Source of the DNA: Roseateles saccharophilus
GTDB taxonomy: Bacteria > Pseudomonadota > Gammaproteobacteria > Burkholderiales > Burkholderiaceae_C
Reading direction: 5' to 3'
Length of the DNA: 64,000 nucleotides
NCBI RefSeq assembly: GCF_004342485.1
Contig: NZ_SMBU01000003.1
Span: forward strand, 124,001-188,000
A model generated the notes under the pieces. The model did not search any database and had not been told where the DNA came from. It saw only the letters and a list, made by a program, of their open reading frames with translations. Positions within the stretch are counted from its first letter, which is position 1; each line of letters begins with the position of its first letter. Both the position numbers and the translations under genes were made by a program. Shown piece after piece: positions 4,687-53,190 of the stretch.

Positions 4687-4739
4687 GTCGGTTATCCACG
4701 CCGCGCTCGCCCCAGCCGTGGCGCACGACCCCGGGGTAT

Positions 4740-4880
4740 TGCGGGCCGAGCGCCGGGCCGCTCCCAAGCCGGCCCGCACTGGCGATGTGCTCGCGGCTCG
4801 ATGCCGCGAGCATCGCCGTCCCCTCGGGGGACCGGCTGGGCTGGCCCGCGTTCAGCGGGGCAAGACCGGACGAGGGGCTC
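4740..4880 (-). repeat. Structured intergenic repeat, copy A
   Basis: About 140-bp element filling the gap between the BLH-SQR gene and the TauE gene. Read on the minus strand it starts four bases after the BLH-SQR stop with GAGCCCCTCGTCCGG. It then carries hairpins CCCGC-TGAAC-GCGGG, GTCCCC-CGA-GGGGAC and a long stem GGCGATG/CTCGCGGC with loop ATCGA, and ends in a stem GCGGGCCG/CGGCCCGC. Related copies lie near 6.64, 18.25 and 53.07 kb, with a fragment near 12.56 kb. No run of T follows the hairpins, so it is not a classical intrinsic terminator. Confidence 0.85.
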
Positions 4881-4884
4881 AAGG

Positions 4885-6552
4885 TCACCCCACCATCTCG
4901 GGCTGGGCCAGCCACTCGCGGCCCTTCAGCATGCCGTCCCAGTACAGCGGCGGCAGGATGCGCTCCTTCAGGTACCAGGCCAGCCGCGAGGGCCGCGTGC
5001 CGTCGATGAACCAGCGCGGGAAGCTGGGCGCCAGCTTCCCGCCGTAGCCGAACTCGGCCAGCACGATCTTGCCGCGCGCCACCGTCAGCGGGCAGGAGCC
5101 GTAGCCGTCGTAGCGAGCCTCGCCCTTGGCCGCACCGCGCGCGGCGAGCACGTTGTGGGCCACCACGGGCGCCTGCTTGCGCGCCGCGGCGGCCGTCTTG
5201 GCGTTGGCGGTGTTGGCCGCGTCGCCCAGCGCGAAGACGTTGGCATGGGCTTTGTGGCGCAGCGTGGCCGGGTCCACGTCCACCCAGCCGGCCGCATCGG
5301 CCAGCGGGCTGACGCGGATGAAGTCCGGCGCCTTTTGCGGCGGCACGACGTGGATCATGTCGAACTCGCGCACGACCTGGGTCTTGCTGCCGTCGGCATG
5401 GGTCTGGCTGAAGAAGGCCTGGCGCGCCGGGCCGTCTATGCCGGTCAGCGTCTGGCCGAAGTTCAGGTGGATGCCGTAGGCCTGGACGTATTCCATCAGC
5501 GCCGGCACATAGTCGGCCACGCCGAAGAGCACGGCGCCGGCATTGCTGAACTGGATGTCCACGCCCTCCAGAACGCCGGCGCGGCGCCACTGGTCGGCCG
5601 ACAGATACATGGCCTTCTGCGGTGCACCGGCGCATTTGATGGGCATGGGCGGCTGCGTGAACACGGCGCGGCCGCCGCGCAGGCCGCGCACCAGTTGCCA
5701 GGTGTAGGGCGCCAGGTCGTAGCGGTAGTTGGACGTGACGCCGTTGCGGCCCAGCGTGTCCACCAGGCCCTCGATGCCGTGCCAGTCCAGCTTGAGGCCG
5801 GGGCAGACGACGAGCTGCCGGTACTTGACGACCCGGCAGCCGTCGAGGATGACGGCATCGCGCTCCGGCTCGAAGGCGGCGACGGCGGCCTTGAGCCAGT
5901 GCACGCCGCGCGGCAGCACGGCGGCCATCGTGCGGGCTGTGGTGGCGGCGTCGAACACGCCGCCGCCCACCAGGGTCCAGCCGGGCTGGTAGTAGTGGAC
6001 GTCGGCGGGGTCGATGATGGCGATGTCCAGCCCCGGCTGGCGTGCCAGCAGGCTGGAGGCCACCGCGATGCCGGCCGCGCCGCCGCCGACGATGACGACC
6101 TCGTGGCTGGCGTCGGCCACCTCGACGGGCGTCCTGCCGCCATTGGCGAGGCGGCGCACCAGGCCCTTGAGGTCGTAGCCGGCGCGGGCGGCGCGCTCGA
6201 TGATCTGCGGCAGCGGCAGCGTGCCGGCCTGGGACAGGGCCCACATCGTCGTCGAACGCATGCCGGTGCGGCAGAAGGCCAGCACGGGCTTGGGGCATTC
6301 GGCCATCAGCGCGCCGAACTGGCGGCCCTGTTCGTCGCTGACCTTGCCCGACTCGGCCGGCAGGTAATGCATCGTCAGGCCCAGGCCGCGGGCGCCGGCC
6401 TCGAGCTCGGCGAACACCGGCTGGTCGTTGCCCTCGCCGTCGGGGCGGTTGCAGATCAGCGAGCGAAAGCCCGCGCGGGCGATCTCGTGCAGATCGGCCG
6501 CATGCACCTGCGCGGCCACGGCCAGCTCGGGCACCAGGGTCTTGTAGTCCAT
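4885..6552 (-). CDS. BLH/DUF442 phosphatase-like domain fused to sulfide:quinone oxidoreductase
   Basis: A 555-residue fusion. Residues 1-140 form a beta-lactamase-hydrolase-like (DUF442, tyrosine-phosphatase/rhodanese-like) domain with the loop FCRTGMRST, catalytic cysteine C94. Residues 150-555 are a flavoprotein of the SQR type with the FAD motif VVIVGGGAAGIAVASSLL (about 152-169) and ALGDAANT near 441. The cysteines C307 (IKCAGAPQKAMYL) and C487 (YGSCPLT) match the pair that forms the sulfur-bridged active site in SQR. It likely oxidises sulfide to sulfane sulfur and passes electrons to quinone at the membrane. The ATG at 6552 has GGAG eight bases upstream. It lies between the dioxygenase-like and TauE genes, flanked by repeat copies B and A. 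Confidence 0.88.
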   Translation of the reverse strand: MDYKTLVPELAVAAQVHAADLHEIARAGFRSLICNRPDGEGNDQPVFAELEAGARGLGLTMHYLPAESGKVSDEQGRQFGALMAECPKPVLAFCRTGMRSTTMWALSQAGTLPLPQIIERAARAGYDLKGLVRRLANGGRTPVEVADASHEVVIVGGGAAGIAVASSLLARQPGLDIAIIDPADVHYYQPGWTLVGGGVFDAATTARTMAAVLPRGVHWLKAAVAAFEPERDAVILDGCRVVKYRQLVVCPGLKLDWHGIEGLVDTLGRNGVTSNYRYDLAPYTWQLVRGLRGGRAVFTQPPMPIKCAGAPQKAMYLSADQWRRAGVLEGVDIQFSNAGAVLFGVADYVPALMEYVQAYGIHLNFGQTLTGIDGPARQAFFSQTHADGSKTQVVREFDMIHVVPPQKAPDFIRVSPLADAAGWVDVDPATLRHKAHANVFALGDAANTANAKTAAAARKQAPVVAHNVLAARGAAKGEARYDGYGSCPLTVARGKIVLAEFGYGGKLAPSFPRWFIDGTRPSRLAWYLKERILPPLYWDGMLKGREWLAQPEMVG

Positions 6553-6637
6553 GGGCTTGTCTCCTTGTGTTGGTGTATTGGCCAGCGAGTCATCCATCCA
6601 TGCCGCGTTCGCGGCACCGCTGCGCACGCAACCGGGG

Positions 6638-6780
6638 TAGTACGGGCCGAGCGCCGGGCCGCCCCAAGCCGGCCCACGGGGCGATGTGTTCACGGCTCAA
6701 TGCCGCGAACATCGCCGTCCCCGCGGGGGACCGGCCGGGCTTGCCCGCGTTCAGCGGGGCAAGACCGGACGAGGGGCTCA
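6638..6780 (-). repeat. Structured intergenic repeat, copy B
   Basis: Second full copy, filling most of the gap between the metallo-beta-lactamase gene and the BLH-SQR gene. On the minus strand the phrase TGAGCCCCTCGTCCGG begins just after the dioxygenase-like stop. Hairpin 1 is CTTGC-CCCGC-TGAAC-GCGGG-CAAG, hairpin 2 GTCCCC-CGC-GGGGAC, and hairpin 3 TTCGCGGC-ATTGA-GCCGTGAA inside a GGCGATG/CATCGCC clamp. Compared with copy A, one C-G pair of hairpin 3 has become T-A and another has become a G-T wobble, so pairing is kept. It is oriented with transcription, as is copy A. Confidence 0.85.
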
Positions 6781-6783
6781 CTT

Positions 6784-7680
6784 TCAAACCGCGTTGAGCG
6801 GAATCTTCAGATAGCGCACGCCGTTGTCCTCGGCCGCCGGCAGCTCGCCGCCGCGCATATTGACCTGCACCGAGGGCAGGATCAGCGTGGGCATGCCCAG
6901 CGTCGCGTCGCGCACGTTACGCATCGCGACGAAGGCGTCCTCGCTGATGCCGTCGCGCACATGCACGTTGTGCGCGCGCTCGTCGGCCACGGTGCTGACG
7001 AACTGCAACTCGCGGCCGCCGGGCTGGTAGTCGTGGCACATGTAGAGGCGCGTCTGCAGCGGCAGGCTCAGCACCTTGTTGATCGAGCGGTACAGCGTGC
7101 GCGCGTCGCCGCCGGGGAAGTCACAGCGCGCCGTGCCGTAGTCGGGCATGAAGAGGGTGTCGCCGACGAAGGCGGCCATGTCCGCATCGGCGCCCTCCCC
7201 GGCCGTGACGACATAGGTCATGCAGGCCGGCGTATGGCCCGGCGTGTGCAGCGTGCGGGCCTGCAGGCCGCCGATGGCGAAGGCCTCGTCATCCTGGAAG
7301 AGGTGGTCGAACTGGCGGCCGTCGCGGGCGAAGTCGGGGCCGGCATTGAACAGCGTGCCGAAGACCTTCTGCACCGTCGTGATGTGCTGGCCTATGCCCA
7401 ATTTCCCGCCCAGGGCCTGGCGCAGATGCGGTGCGGCCGAGAGGTGGTCGGCATGGACATGGGTTTCGAGAATCCACTGCACCCGGGCACCGAGCTCGCG
7501 CACGCGGGCGATCAACCGGTCTGCGCCGGCCGTCGTCGTGCGGCCCGACTTGGGGTCGTAGTCCAGCACGCTGTCGATGATGGCGCACTGCAGCGTGCTG
7601 CGGTCCAGCACGAGATAGCTGACGGTCCAGGTCGCCGGGTCGAAGAAGCCCTCGACCTGCAGCCGCGATTGCCGCCCCAT
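6784..7680 (-). CDS. Metallo-beta-lactamase-fold persulfide dioxygenase-like protein
   Basis: A 298-residue MBL-fold enzyme. The metal ligands are visible: H74, H76, D78 and H79 in THVHADHL, H149 in TPGHT, D174 in VGDTLF and H216 in CHDY. The phrase MPDYGTARCDFPGGDA is typical of the Blh/ETHE1-like branch that oxidises glutathione persulfide to sulfite using one Fe(II). Lying next to a BLH-SQR fusion, a DUF2892 gene and a sulfite exporter, it fits sulfane-sulfur detoxification in the cytoplasm. The ATG at 7680 follows GGGAG at a normal distance and lies 23 bases after the DUF2892 stop. Whether it binds one iron or two zincs cannot be seen here. Confidence 0.85.
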   Translation of the reverse strand: MGRQSRLQVEGFFDPATWTVSYLVLDRSTLQCAIIDSVLDYDPKSGRTTTAGADRLIARVRELGARVQWILETHVHADHLSAAPHLRQALGGKLGIGQHITTVQKVFGTLFNAGPDFARDGRQFDHLFQDDEAFAIGGLQARTLHTPGHTPACMTYVVTAGEGADADMAAFVGDTLFMPDYGTARCDFPGGDARTLYRSINKVLSLPLQTRLYMCHDYQPGGRELQFVSTVADERAHNVHVRDGISEDAFVAMRNVRDATLGMPTLILPSVQVNMRGGELPAAEDNGVRYLKIPLNAV

Positions 7681-17151: not shown

Positions 17152-18243
17152 ATGTCGTTTCTCGAACCCCTCATCGACCGCCTCGGCGAACCGGCTACGC
17201 TGGCCCTGGGCGCCGCGCTGATCGGCGTGCTGTTCGGCTTCTTCACGCAGCGCTCGCGCTTCTGCCTGCGCGCGGCCGTCATCGAGTTCGCCCGAGACCA
17301 GCGCACCGGCGGCCGGCTGACGGTCTGGCTGTTCGCCTTCGCCACGGCCGTCGGCGCGACCCAGACCCTGGCGATGCTGGGCTGGTTCGACGCCGGCAAC
17401 GCGCGCCAGATCGCCGCGCGCGGCAGCCTCTCCGGCGCGGCGGTCGGCGGCGCGTTGTTCGGCATGGGCATGATCCTCGCGCGCGGCTGCTCCAGCCGCA
17501 TGCTGGTGCTGGCGGCCCAGGGCAATCTGCGTGCGCTGCTGTCGGGGCTGGTGTTCGCGGTCGCGGCGCAGTCGGCGCTGACCGGCGCGCTTTCGCCGCT
17601 GCGGCTGGCCATCTCCGAGTGGTGGACCATCGACGGCGGCGGCGCCCGCGACCTGCTGGCCCGCACCGGCATGGGCCATGGCGGCGCACTGCTGTTCGCG
17701 GCCCTGTGGTTCGCCGCCGCGGTGTTCTGGGCGCGGCGCCAACGCGTGGGCGCCTGGGGCTGGGGCGGCGCCATCGGCGTGGGCCTCACGGTGGCGGCGG
17801 GCTGGTGGTTCACCTACGCCGTCTCCAGGCTGGCCTTCGACCCCCACCCCATCCAGTCGCTGAGCTTCACCGGCCCCTCGGCCGAGGTGCTGAGTCGTGT
17901 CCTCTTCGTCAGCGACAAGCCGCTCAGCTTCGACGTGGGCCTGATCCCGGGTGTCTTTCTCGGCGCCTTCCTCGCCGCGGCGCTGTCCGGCGAGCTCAGG
18001 CTGGAAGGCTTCCAGGGCGGCGCCAGCATGCGCCGCTACATCGTCGGCGCGGTCTGCATGGGCTTCGGCGGCATGCTGGCCGGCGGCTGCGCCGTCGGCG
18101 CCGGCCTGTCGGGCGCAGCGGTGTTCACGGCCACGTCCTGGGTCACGCTGGCCGGTATCTGGGCCGCCGCCGCGCTGACCGACCGGCTTGTCGACCAGGG
18201 CGACACGCCGCCGGCCACGAACGAGGCTGGTGGCCGGCCCTGA
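17152..18243 (+). CDS. YeeE/YedE (TsuA-like) thiosulfate/sulfur transporter
   Basis: A 363-residue inner-membrane protein with about nine to ten hydrophobic helices. Three conserved cysteine motifs of the family are present: RSRFCLRAA (C38), ARGCSSRM (C113) and GGCAVGAGLSG in the C-terminal half. In TsuA these cysteines form the conducting path for thiosulfate. It is the last plus-strand gene of the sox group and converges with a second member of the same family. Import of thiosulfate or related sulfur species is the likely role; direction is not shown by sequence. Confidence 0.88.
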   Translation: MSFLEPLIDRLGEPATLALGAALIGVLFGFFTQRSRFCLRAAVIEFARDQRTGGRLTVWLFAFATAVGATQTLAMLGWFDAGNARQIAARGSLSGAAVGGALFGMGMILARGCSSRMLVLAAQGNLRALLSGLVFAVAAQSALTGALSPLRLAISEWWTIDGGGARDLLARTGMGHGGALLFAALWFAAAVFWARRQRVGAWGWGGAIGVGLTVAAGWWFTYAVSRLAFDPHPIQSLSFTGPSAEVLSRVLFVSDKPLSFDVGLIPGVFLGAFLAAALSGELRLEGFQGGASMRRYIVGAVCMGFGGMLAGGCAVGAGLSGAAVFTATSWVTLAGIWAAAALTDRLVDQGDTPPATNEAGGRP

Positions 18244-18250
18244 AGAGCGC

Positions 18251-18358
18251 ATTCCGGGCCGAGCGCCGGCCCGCCCTGGCGATGTGCTTGCGGCTCGGTG
18301 CCGCAAGCATCGCCGCCCCCTCGGGGGGCGGCCCAGCGTACCCGCTGGGCCGGGGGCC
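18251..18358 (-). repeat. Structured intergenic repeat, copy C
   Basis: Full but more diverged copy between the two convergent YeeE genes. On the minus strand it starts directly after the stop of the 18359-19477 gene. Hairpin 1 is CCCAGCG-GGTA-CGCTGGG, hairpin 2 GCCCCC-CGA-GGGGGC, and hairpin 3 CTTGCGGC-ACCGA-GCCGCAAG inside GGCGATG/CATCGCC. The last stem is CGGGCCG-GCGCT-CGGCCCG. Hairpins 1 and 2 differ in sequence from copies A and B but pair fully. Confidence 0.8.
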
Positions 18359-19477
18359 TCATCCCAAGCGCCACTCCTGATAGCGCAGCGCCAGCCAGGC
18401 GCCGACCACCATCGCAGCCAGCGCGATGAAGCTGCCCAGCGACAGCGTCGACACACCCGTGACGCCCTGGCCGATGCTGCAGCCCATCGCGACGATGCCG
18501 CCCACGCCCATGCAGGCCGCGCCCACGAGGTGCAGGCCCAGGTCGCCCACATTGCCGAAGCCCTCCCAGCGGAAGCTGCCTTCGCGCCAGGCCATCAGCG
18601 CCGCGCCGACGACGATACCGGCCACGCTGGCGATGCCCAGCGTCAGCGTCTTGGACTGGTCGCTGAACAGCAGCAGCCAGTCCAGCGCATAGGCCACCGG
18701 AGCGATCGTGCTCAGCGACTCCATGTGGCGCGAGTTCGTCGCCAGATAGACCGGCTCCAGCGTGCGCGGGTCCTCGGGCAGGAAGCCCAGATGGCCCGAC
18801 ACCCACCACAGCGCGGTGACCAGCGCGCCCACGCCCAGCCCGGCGAGCGCGACCTCCAGCGAGCGCCCCGCGCGCGGCAGCAGCGCCCAGGCCAGCAGCG
18901 CCACGGCCACCAGCACGGCCAGGCCCAGGCCCCAGGCCGCCGCGCCGCCCGGCAGCACGGCGGCAACAAGCCCCGGCAGGGCCTGGCCCGCCGGCAGATC
19001 GACGAAGACCTTCTCCACCGTGGCCACGCGCAGCACGGCCGTCAGGCCGCGCAGCGTCGCGCCGGCCGCGATGGCCGCCACCGCCAGCACCACCAGCGAC
19101 TTCAGGCTGCCGCCGCCCAGGCGCACGAGGTTGCGGCTGATGCAGCCCGAGCTCAGCACCATGCCGAAGCCGAACACCAGCCCGCCCAGCGCAGCCGACA
19201 GCCAAAGCAGGCGCGGCCCCGCATAGATGCTGGCGGCCGGGTCGAGCTGGCCCAGCGCCACCAGGCCGTTGAAGCCCAGCATCGCGACGGCCACCGCGAC
19301 CACCCACATGCGCGCGCGCCGCCAGTCGCCCATCGTGTAGACGTCGGAGATCGCACCCATCGTGCAAAAGCGCGTGCGCTGGCACAGCGCGCCGAACAGC
19401 ACGGCCAGGCCGAACGCGGCGCCGAGCACTTGGTGCGTGAGGGCGGGCAAGCTCGATTCGTCCATGGCGGTCAGCAT
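18359..19477 (-). CDS. Second YeeE/YedE (TsuA-like) transporter
   Basis: A 372-residue membrane protein of the same family as the gene at 17152, with CQRTRFCTMGAISDV (C32, C38), SSGCISRNLVRLGGG and GCSIGQGVTGVS as the cysteine-bearing re-entrant motifs. About ten hydrophobic segments are visible. It diverges from the ArsR-type gene at 19575 across 97 bases, so the regulator may control it. An ATG four codons inside (MDESS) is an alternative start. A cargo of thiosulfate or another sulfur anion is inferred from family and context. Confidence 0.86.
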   Translation of the reverse strand: MLTAMDESSLPALTHQVLGAAFGLAVLFGALCQRTRFCTMGAISDVYTMGDWRRARMWVVAVAVAMLGFNGLVALGQLDPAASIYAGPRLLWLSAALGGLVFGFGMVLSSGCISRNLVRLGGGSLKSLVVLAVAAIAAGATLRGLTAVLRVATVEKVFVDLPAGQALPGLVAAVLPGGAAAWGLGLAVLVAVALLAWALLPRAGRSLEVALAGLGVGALVTALWWVSGHLGFLPEDPRTLEPVYLATNSRHMESLSTIAPVAYALDWLLLFSDQSKTLTLGIASVAGIVVGAALMAWREGSFRWEGFGNVGDLGLHLVGAACMGVGGIVAMGCSIGQGVTGVSTLSLGSFIALAAMVVGAWLALRYQEWRLG

Positions 19478-26551: not shown

Positions 26552-26561
26552 ACTGCCGCCC

Positions 26562-26670
26562 GTCATTGGGGAGTAGCCGCACCGAAGGTCTTTCGGTGGC
26601 TCGCGTCAACATACTTGGCCTCACGGCCATGGCGCGCGCGGTGTACGACTTGGCAAGACCTTTGACCATG
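26562..26670 (+). ncRNA. yybP-ykoY manganese riboswitch
   Basis: Leader RNA of the GDT1-type exporter gene. The conserved blocks of the yybP-ykoY class are present in order: GGGGAGTAGCC, then CGCGTCAACATACTTGG with the cross-helix loop, and the closing strand GGCAAGACCTTTGACC. The class binds Mn(II) and turns on exporters when manganese is high. Seven bases of the closing strand, TTGACCA (26662-26668), are perfectly complementary to TGGTCAA at 26698-26704, just before the ribosome site. This suggests the switch between the two pairings controls expression. Confidence 0.9.
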
Positions 26671-26737
26671 CATCCGCGGTTCGGCCGGGCGGGCGCGTGG
26701 TCAACCGTCTTCGTCCGGCCGAGGAATCCGCAGCAGC

Positions 26738-27310
26738 ATGGAAGCACTCCTGATGTCCACCGGCGTGGTGGCCCTGGCCGAGATCGGCGACAAGACCCAA
26801 CTCCTGGCCTTCGTCCTGGCCGCCCGTTTCAAGCGGCCCGTCCCCATCATCCTGGGCATCCTGGCCGCGACCATCGTCAACCACGGTGCCGCGGGCGCGC
26901 TGGGCGCCTGGATCACGTCGGTGCTGAGCCCCGAGCTGCTGCGCTGGGTGGTCGGCCTGTCCTTCCTCGGCATGGCGGCCTGGACGCTGATCCCCGACAA
27001 GATCGACGACGAGGACACCCGCGTCAGCGGCCACCTCGGCGTGTTCGGCACGACGCTGGTCACCTTCTTCCTGGCCGAGATGGGCGACAAGACGCAGATC
27101 GCCACCATCGCGATGGCGGCGCACTACCCGCAGCCGCTGCTGGTCGTGGCCGGCACGACGCTGGGCATGCTGATCGCGGACGTGCCCGCCGTCTTCGTCG
27201 GCGACCGCTTCGCGAAGAAGATCCCGATGAAGCTGGTCCACGGCGTCGCCGCGGCGATGTTCGCGGTGATGGGCCTGGCGACGCTGCTCAGGGTCGACCG
27301 CTGGCTCTGA
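26738..27310 (+). CDS. TMEM165/GDT1 (UPF0016, MneA-type) manganese exporter
   Basis: A 190-residue inner-membrane protein made of two homologous halves. Each carries the E-x-G-D-K-T signature, ALAEIGDKTQLLAF at about 13 and FLAEMGDKTQIATI at about 110, whose acidic residues bind the cation. Six hydrophobic helices are visible. MneA homologues export Mn(II), and the riboswitch upstream supports this here. GAGGAA lies 11 bases before the ATG at 26738; an ATG five codons on is the alternative. Confidence 0.92.
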   Translation: MEALLMSTGVVALAEIGDKTQLLAFVLAARFKRPVPIILGILAATIVNHGAAGALGAWITSVLSPELLRWVVGLSFLGMAAWTLIPDKIDDEDTRVSGHLGVFGTTLVTFFLAEMGDKTQIATIAMAAHYPQPLLVVAGTTLGMLIADVPAVFVGDRFAKKIPMKLVHGVAAAMFAVMGLATLLRVDRWL

Positions 27311-53066: not shown

Positions 53067-53190
53067 ACCCCTCGTCCAAGGCGTACCTTGGCCGGTCCCC
53101 CGTGGGGACGGCGATACATGCCGGCTCGACCGGCATGTACATCGCCAGCGCGGGCCGGCTTGGGAGCGGCCCGGCGCTCGGCCCGCAAGA
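53067..53190 (+). repeat. Structured intergenic repeat, copy D
   Basis: Full copy in the plus orientation between pxpA and the DUF969 gene, beginning with CCCCTCGTCC nine bases after the pxpA stop. Hairpin 1 is CCAAGG-CGTA-CCTTGG, hairpin 2 GTCCCC-CGT-GGGGAC and hairpin 3 ACATGCCGG-CTCGA-CCGGCATGT inside GGCGAT/ATCGCC. The end reads GGGCCGGCTTGGGAGCGG, then CCCGGCGCTCGGCCCG. Hairpins 1 and 3 have different bases from copies A and B in nearly every pair yet remain perfect. Confidence 0.85.

Follow-up and report, generated by a model that had tools for sequence, protein, structure and literature searches.

We found that a hairpin repeat in the window analyzed here, a 64,000-nt stretch of the Roseateles saccharophilus genome, belongs to a multicopy family whose members usually lie between a stop and a start codon, are species-specific at orthologous junctions, face a direction bound to their subtype, and carry conserved, covarying hairpins. 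The family splits in two: type I has a third hairpin, and type II lacks it. We are highly confident that this is a mobile intercistronic family. The fuller reading that we favor, a mobile, palindrome-rich intercistronic element family that is REP/ERIC-like in its working, includes a function and is reasonably likely.

Architecture and spread of the family

Copies A to D of the window, all type I, have a CCCCTCG-like lead, hairpins 1 to 3, and a terminal hairpin that spans 37 nt except in C, where it is shorter. In these copies, hairpin 1 takes either a short form (AAGG-AGTA-CCTT-like) or a long form with the loop CTGAA, hairpin 2 reads GTCCCC-CGN-GGGGAC, and hairpin 3 reads GGCGAT-stem-loop (mostly NNNGA)-stem-AC-ATCGCC. 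Copy A (4741..4877, − strand) comprises the lead (4868-4877), a long hairpin 1, hairpin 2 (4818-4832), hairpin 3 (4781-4817), and the terminal hairpin (4741-4777); its upstream neighbor is the gene at 4885-6552 (−). A 3' extra module of copy A (4687..4740, −; ACCCCGGGG..GCGTGGATAACCGAC) resembles, by eye, the right module in about 12 other copies and reaches a possible start codon of the next gene (ATG, 4686), which was our choice and which the gene finder placed later. Copy B (6642..6776, −; lead 6767-6776) follows a gene ending at 6784 (−). Copy C (18252..18356, −) has a short hairpin 1, the lead CCCCCGG, and a terminal hairpin without 16 inner nt. Copy D (53068..53186, +) has a short hairpin 1, hairpin 3 at 53110-53146, and the terminal hairpin at 53150-53186, downstream of a putative pxpA/LamB-YcsF-like gene (+, assigned by eye).

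These four copies had been reported in an earlier note made from the sequence, and all were located where claimed; a covariance model built from 33 copies (R1) scored them at 107 (A), 94 (B), 71 (C), and 103 (D) bits, which is circular, as all four sat in the alignment behind it. Their leads begin 7, 7, 2, and 8 nt past the stop codon in A, B, C, and D, in agreement with the claimed proximity. The genes on either side of A, B, and D share a strand, as described, and C lies between convergent genes (17152-18243, +, and 18359-19477, −) according to our own gene calls. Compensatory changes of stem bases among the four were reproduced by sequence comparison. The shared architecture holds for the lead and the hairpins, but the terminal hairpin, at 37 nt, is longer than the GGGCCG/CGGCCC clamp originally described. 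The lead CCCCTCGTCC did not prove distinctive by itself, matching the window 10 times at ≤1 mismatch against 8.7 expected. Copies A and D, the two that were folded singly, fold below dinucleotide shuffles (z = −3.07 and −3.37). R1 also gave six weaker matches in the window (E 0.1-0.91), which seem to be chance or the opposite strand of the same copies. No Rfam model matched positions 4700-4920 (copy A) at E ≤ 1. Within the window, the only Rfam match at the gathering threshold was a yybP-ykoY manganese riboswitch (26556-26729, +, 87.5 bits), which closely precedes a gene called at 26738-27310.

A DNA search of the same genome with copy A gave 40 matches (the best 40 of 172 first-look candidates scored), and R1, which is biased toward A-like copies, gave 84 at E ≤ 1 (best 150 of 18,432 first-look candidates scored). 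Ten further matches in this genome, absent from the R1 list, were given by a type II model (R2). The type I copies vary in composition: an extra module stands ahead of hairpin 2 in 17 of 71, the terminal hairpin of 13 of 71 (#47, 51, 52, 58-63, 66-68, and 77) contains an insertion that is AACTGGAGTCGGACACAAG-like at its start, and about 12 copies show, by eye, a 3' module whose GGATAACTGA-like end is close to the following start.

Across 60 genomes, scanned with stricter filters and at most 70 candidates scored per genome, R1 was positive in all 20 of the genus, this genome among them; in 4 of 16 further family genomes, each from a different genus; and in none of 24 from other families. R2 at E ≤ 1e-6 was positive in 28 of 100 family genomes, or 27 of 99 genera. 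The exact 33-bp terminal hairpin occurred in at least 117 stretches of named bacterial genomes. The genera among the matches listed (80 titles) were Pelomonas, Roseateles, Paucibacter, Piscinibacter, Aquabacterium, and Methylibium, together with Rhizobacter, Ideonella, Rivibacter, Sphaerotilus, Rubrivivax, and Aquincola, and Burkholderiales and Pseudomonadota records. Plasmid and phage sequences gave no match to copy A. One contig of a viral collection (L329, 885-917, −) contains the terminal hairpin. Titles and opening lines of abstracts in the open-licence literature yielded no description of this hairpin-repeat family.

Placement relative to stop and start codons

We examined placement using gene calls from a simple finder based on codon scores, which had the window as its training set and was also applied to other genera. 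The type I count comprised ranks 0-69 of the 84 R1 matches (70 copies) and left out #77 (type I with an insertion), the 11 type II copies (70-76, 78-81), and the poor matches 82 and 83. Between co-directional genes, 43 of these 70 copies were in sense and 3 in antisense; of the rest, 17 had convergent and 6 had divergent neighbors, and 1 was at the end of a contig. Where a same-strand upstream gene was present, the lead began 0-10 nt past its stop in 56 of 61 copies (the pattern matched 57 leads, all at 0-10 nt, of which #19 was false, its real lead being about 67 nt off, and 4 were unmatched). Uniform placement would put 19.4 of 56 leads near the stop; 56 of 56 were scored there (55 without #19), and the maximum in 20,000 simulations was 32. 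Among the 14 roomy junctions, #19 was mis-scored, and the downstream gene call at #40 overlaps the element. Orientation and stop distance, chosen beforehand as the test of the idea, are thus strongly non-random.

The same held elsewhere. In Pelomonas aquatica KCTC 42961 (G005), type I copies between co-directional pairs were 13 in sense and 2 in antisense; 17 of 20 had a same-strand upstream gene, and the lead was found in 13 of these 17, within 10 nt of the stop in 12. For type I in named genomes, the corresponding counts were 24 in sense and 4 in antisense among the matches listed.

The placement described in the earlier note, in sense and close to stop codons, fits type I, but the note overlooked a second subtype that lies in antisense and abuts the start codon. 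Type II is the commoner form outside Pelomonas and Roseateles among the titled matches listed. Its co-directional pairs in named genomes were 46 in antisense and 4 in sense, and the two types differed in orientation with a Fisher p of 4e-12, again among the matches listed; these named-locus counts cover 124 occurrences, 14 of them unclassified, with tandem units counted singly and P. aquatica included. Of the type II copies among the R1 matches in the R. saccharophilus genome, all 11 were in antisense and none in sense, and P. aquatica had 0 sense and 3 antisense co-directional pairs. A lead could be located in 49 of the 51 listed copies antisense to both flanking genes. Read along the genes, these copies start ≤30 nt past the stop in 39 of 49 and end in CGAGGGG-N5-ATG; in 34 of 49, a CAT precedes the lead at a distance of exactly 5 nt (both counts among the matches listed). 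By its sequence, CGAGGGG is a putative Shine-Dalgarno-like site, and its spacing to the following start is fixed.

A model-chosen sample of type II (n = 40; 31 loci of genome G098 and 9 of Methylibium sp. NZG, G024), which lowers the bias of exact matching, gave 31 antisense co-directional copies, 3 reversed, and 6 other, and in 20 of the 40 the ATG stood exactly where the model ends; its Methylibium rows overlap the named loci, and two of its G098 rows represent a probable duplicated junction. At L291 and L292 in G098, about 2.9 Mb apart, the element ends and near flanks are identical as printed, and this is probably a duplicated gene junction. Type II also occurs in tandem arrays (L178, L207, L221, L248 with a 90-bp period, L261 with an 81-bp period, and G108:C198 144233-144679), whose inner units often retain an ATGACAG-like sequence next to the lead.

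Mobility, strand asymmetry, and alternative readings

We aligned 20 sites of the R. saccharophilus genome to P. aquatica, a comparison that covered 1.18 Mb of the latter and records presence or absence without polarity of gain or loss. Four sites were filled in both species (#8, #14, #50, and #62) and 16 were empty in P. aquatica (#82 among them is a poor match and weak evidence; #75 and #81 are type II), which indicates that the family is mobile. Flanks of filled and empty junctions were 84-95% identical, and several empty junctions (#34, #55, #75, and #81, by eye) are gene overlaps. The pxpA-like junction where copy D sits is occupied in 3 of 18 genus genomes, R. saccharophilus included, by copies with differing forms of hairpin 1; the gaps in the other 15 range from −4 to 62 nt. 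The earlier suggestion of a mobile REP-like family is thus borne out by the many copies (84 R1 matches) and by junctions that are occupied in one species yet vacant in the other.

Covariation went beyond the shuffles on most measures in the test proposed earlier: four of five measures exceeded all 500 shuffles in both types, and the fifth, further pair types, was equalled by 3 of 500 shuffles for type II and 34 of 500 for type I, although such shuffles ignore relatedness among copies. Stem pairs had changed on both sides in 7 of 12 cases in type II and 8 of 32 in type I. Since the type II alignment was chosen by the exact 33-bp match, its terminal hairpin carries no covariation information. 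In type I hairpin 3 (38 distinct stems; 97 of 135 hairpins used, with 10 of other lengths and 28 on the opposite strand or odd excluded), Watson-Crick pairing was 0.877, against 0.664 with the arms re-dealt. Arm-to-arm copying in palindromic DNA can also yield compensatory change; covariation fits RNA or DNA alike and does not decide between them.

Mismatches carry strand information. On the mRNA strand, the type I hairpin 3 set showed 13 A-C, 5 G-U, and 24 other mismatches, an A-C excess that opposes the expectation from RNA selection but is not significant alone (sign test about 0.1). Type II hairpin 1 showed 9 G-U, 0 A-C, and 8 other (26 distinct stems, drawn from the 54 copies, of 58, whose loop has 4 nt), and the type I hairpin 1 consensus folds better in antisense (−15.1 vs −8.9 for the long form, −8.9 vs −4.9 for the short form). 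Though based on small numbers, these asymmetries implicate one and the same physical strand of the element in type I and type II alike and would also fit a single-stranded DNA stage. Folding of whole elements gave no significant strand difference (type I, p = 0.54, n = 44; type II, p = 0.08, n = 48), and strand-specific folding of the whole element was dropped. The stems covary, but type I wobbles do not favor the mRNA strand, so the covariation does not amount to proof of an RNA function such as the role in processing, stability, attenuation, or protein binding suggested earlier.

The strongest competitor is purely selfish DNA, in which placement and orientation would follow from a preference for inserting at stop/start junctions (ATGA, TGA-N-ATG) together with purging of harmful insertions, and the hairpins would serve single-stranded DNA transposition. 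The failure of type I mismatches to favor the mRNA strand suits this reading. So do the flanks left of the lead, with a loose consensus ATGAAG in type I (n = 57) and CATG(A/T)C(A/T)G in type II (CATGACAG/CATGTCTG; n = 49, among the matches listed), from which it follows that an ATG adjoins the lead in both types. Empty sites include, by eye, ATGA or TGATG overlaps (#55, #75, and #81), and a TGA immediately precedes the start of the downstream gene in 9 of 41 type I pairs, compared with 19 of 365 in the background (p = 0.0008). Nevertheless, TGA as the insertion target, hinted at by #20 and #27, was not clearly enriched among the stops (54 of 61 vs 836 of 1021 in the background). Target-site duplication was not above shuffled pairs in type I (p = 0.64, n = 54) and was weak in type II (5.34 vs 5.04 shuffled, sd 0.16, n = 41), and it is not supported as a general rule; single suggestive cases are #55, with CTGCC[A/G]TGA on both sides, and L246, with CCGGTCATG on both sides. 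Moreover, selfishness alone leaves the opposite facing of types I and II unaccounted for. We give purely selfish DNA a substantial but minority chance.

A dedicated regulatory RNA, either an attenuator or a switch that sequesters the Shine-Dalgarno site, is quite improbable. A predicted fold of copy A pairs the lead CCCCTCG with CGAGGGG in the loop and arm of hairpin 2, and the type II hairpin 1 wobbles do fall on the mRNA strand. However, the hairpin 2 loop varies although CGAGGGG is largely kept, so this alternative pairing is not conserved and the sequestering switch is not supported; in addition, the sites come and go among close species.

That these copies form a true REP family, mobilized by a RAYT (Y1 transposase), is very improbable. 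Y1_Tnp was found in 34 of 40 genomes, with a single gene in R. saccharophilus, but it also occurs in four of four genomes of the same family (G020-G023) in which no R1 or R2 copy was found. The R. saccharophilus gene (L111 1390-2260, G000:C29) bears inverted GGGGTCGGAGTC/GACTCCGACCCC repeats at both ends, unlike the element, and has no element copy within 1.5 kb; a short-motif search at Y1 loci L107 and L102 found no copy in the flanks. We accordingly rejected a RAYT link for the three loci examined. Intrinsic terminators, as which strong G+C hairpins near gene ends might pass, are scarcely credible, as the earlier note had held of ordinary terminators: TTTT occurred within 12 nt of the terminal hairpin in 0 of 70 copies, 43 of the 70 lie in sense between co-directional genes, and #36 precedes a separate terminator-like hairpin with a T-run.

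Proposed working and comparison with known systems

We return to the mobile, palindrome-rich intercistronic element, which probably acts on ribosomes and message stability. Copies would persist where both neighboring genes remain intact and, once inserted, would be co-transcribed within the operon. In type I, the first stem would lie roughly 8-18 nt past the stop (an estimate from 0-10 nt plus about 8 unpaired lead nt), where it may slow or stall the terminating ribosome and may guard the upstream message against 3' exonucleases. In type II, CGAGGGG-N5-ATG may serve as the ribosome-binding site of the downstream gene. We give even chances to a real post-transcriptional effect at many sites, and consider the version with ribosome stalling unlikely. 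A bolder and rather doubtful extension is a portable intercistronic region, with two subtypes built for operon junctions, whose insertion would part overlapping genes while both stay readable and would reset how much each is translated relative to the other and how stable their messages are; by spreading, it would rewire operon stoichiometry across a bacterial group.

If the favored reading is right, small mobile repeats can become closely matched to operon junctions and even bring a start-proximal ribosome-binding site, and in Pelomonas, Methylibium, Piscinibacter, Aquabacterium, and relatives a single family may alter both translation and message stability for dozens of genes in each genome. 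Species pairs with filled and empty sites between flanks of such high identity (84-95%) would then be natural tests of stop-proximal hairpins.

Several known systems resemble the element in part. REP sequences carry a conserved GTAG tetranucleotide 5' of the hairpin. Like the stop-proximal class of E. coli REP/BIME, the family consists of multicopy intergenic palindromes downstream of genes; it differs in length (about 80 to 290 nt), in having several distinct hairpins and a strong orientation rule, in showing no GTAG-type end in the 8 nt left of the lead (consensus ATGAAG and CATGACAG/CATGTCTG), and in the lack of a RAYT link at the three Y1 loci examined, for which reason we do not file it under REP. 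In the passages of PMC12306157 used here, E. coli REPs act on translation only within 15 nt of the stop (Liang 2015, cited there), a ribosome-stalling rule that, in that form, would cover the type I copies. The same passages place 446 of 4,072 E. coli REPs, or 260 of 496 by Liang's count, within 15 nt of the stop, compared with 56 of 61 sense copies here (70 copies in all).

Correia/NEMIS, RUP, and other bacterial MITEs are likewise short intergenic repeats without genes of their own, but, compared by description, our element shows no clear duplication signal and no terminal inverted repeats by eye: its visible ends, CCCCTCG and GGCCCGC, are not mutual inverted repeats, although they may not be the true ends. 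With MITEs and ERIC it shares presence that is polymorphic at orthologous sites. ERIC, as described in the portion of PMC2229807 used here, is a mobile, intercistronic, co-transcribed hairpin whose orientation affects message stability, and to that extent our element is, like ERIC/IRU/RU-1, a mobile and orientation-dependent intercistronic hairpin. It is set apart from them, by description, by a placement tied to stop and start codons and by the lack of an Rfam match of copy A at E ≤ 1. Given the lack of clear MITE-type ends and duplications, we do not file the element under ERIC either, though ERIC and the stop-proximal REPs are its closest working models. We place it among the bacterial mobile intergenic hairpin elements, as a variant of its own that fits stop and start codons unusually well.
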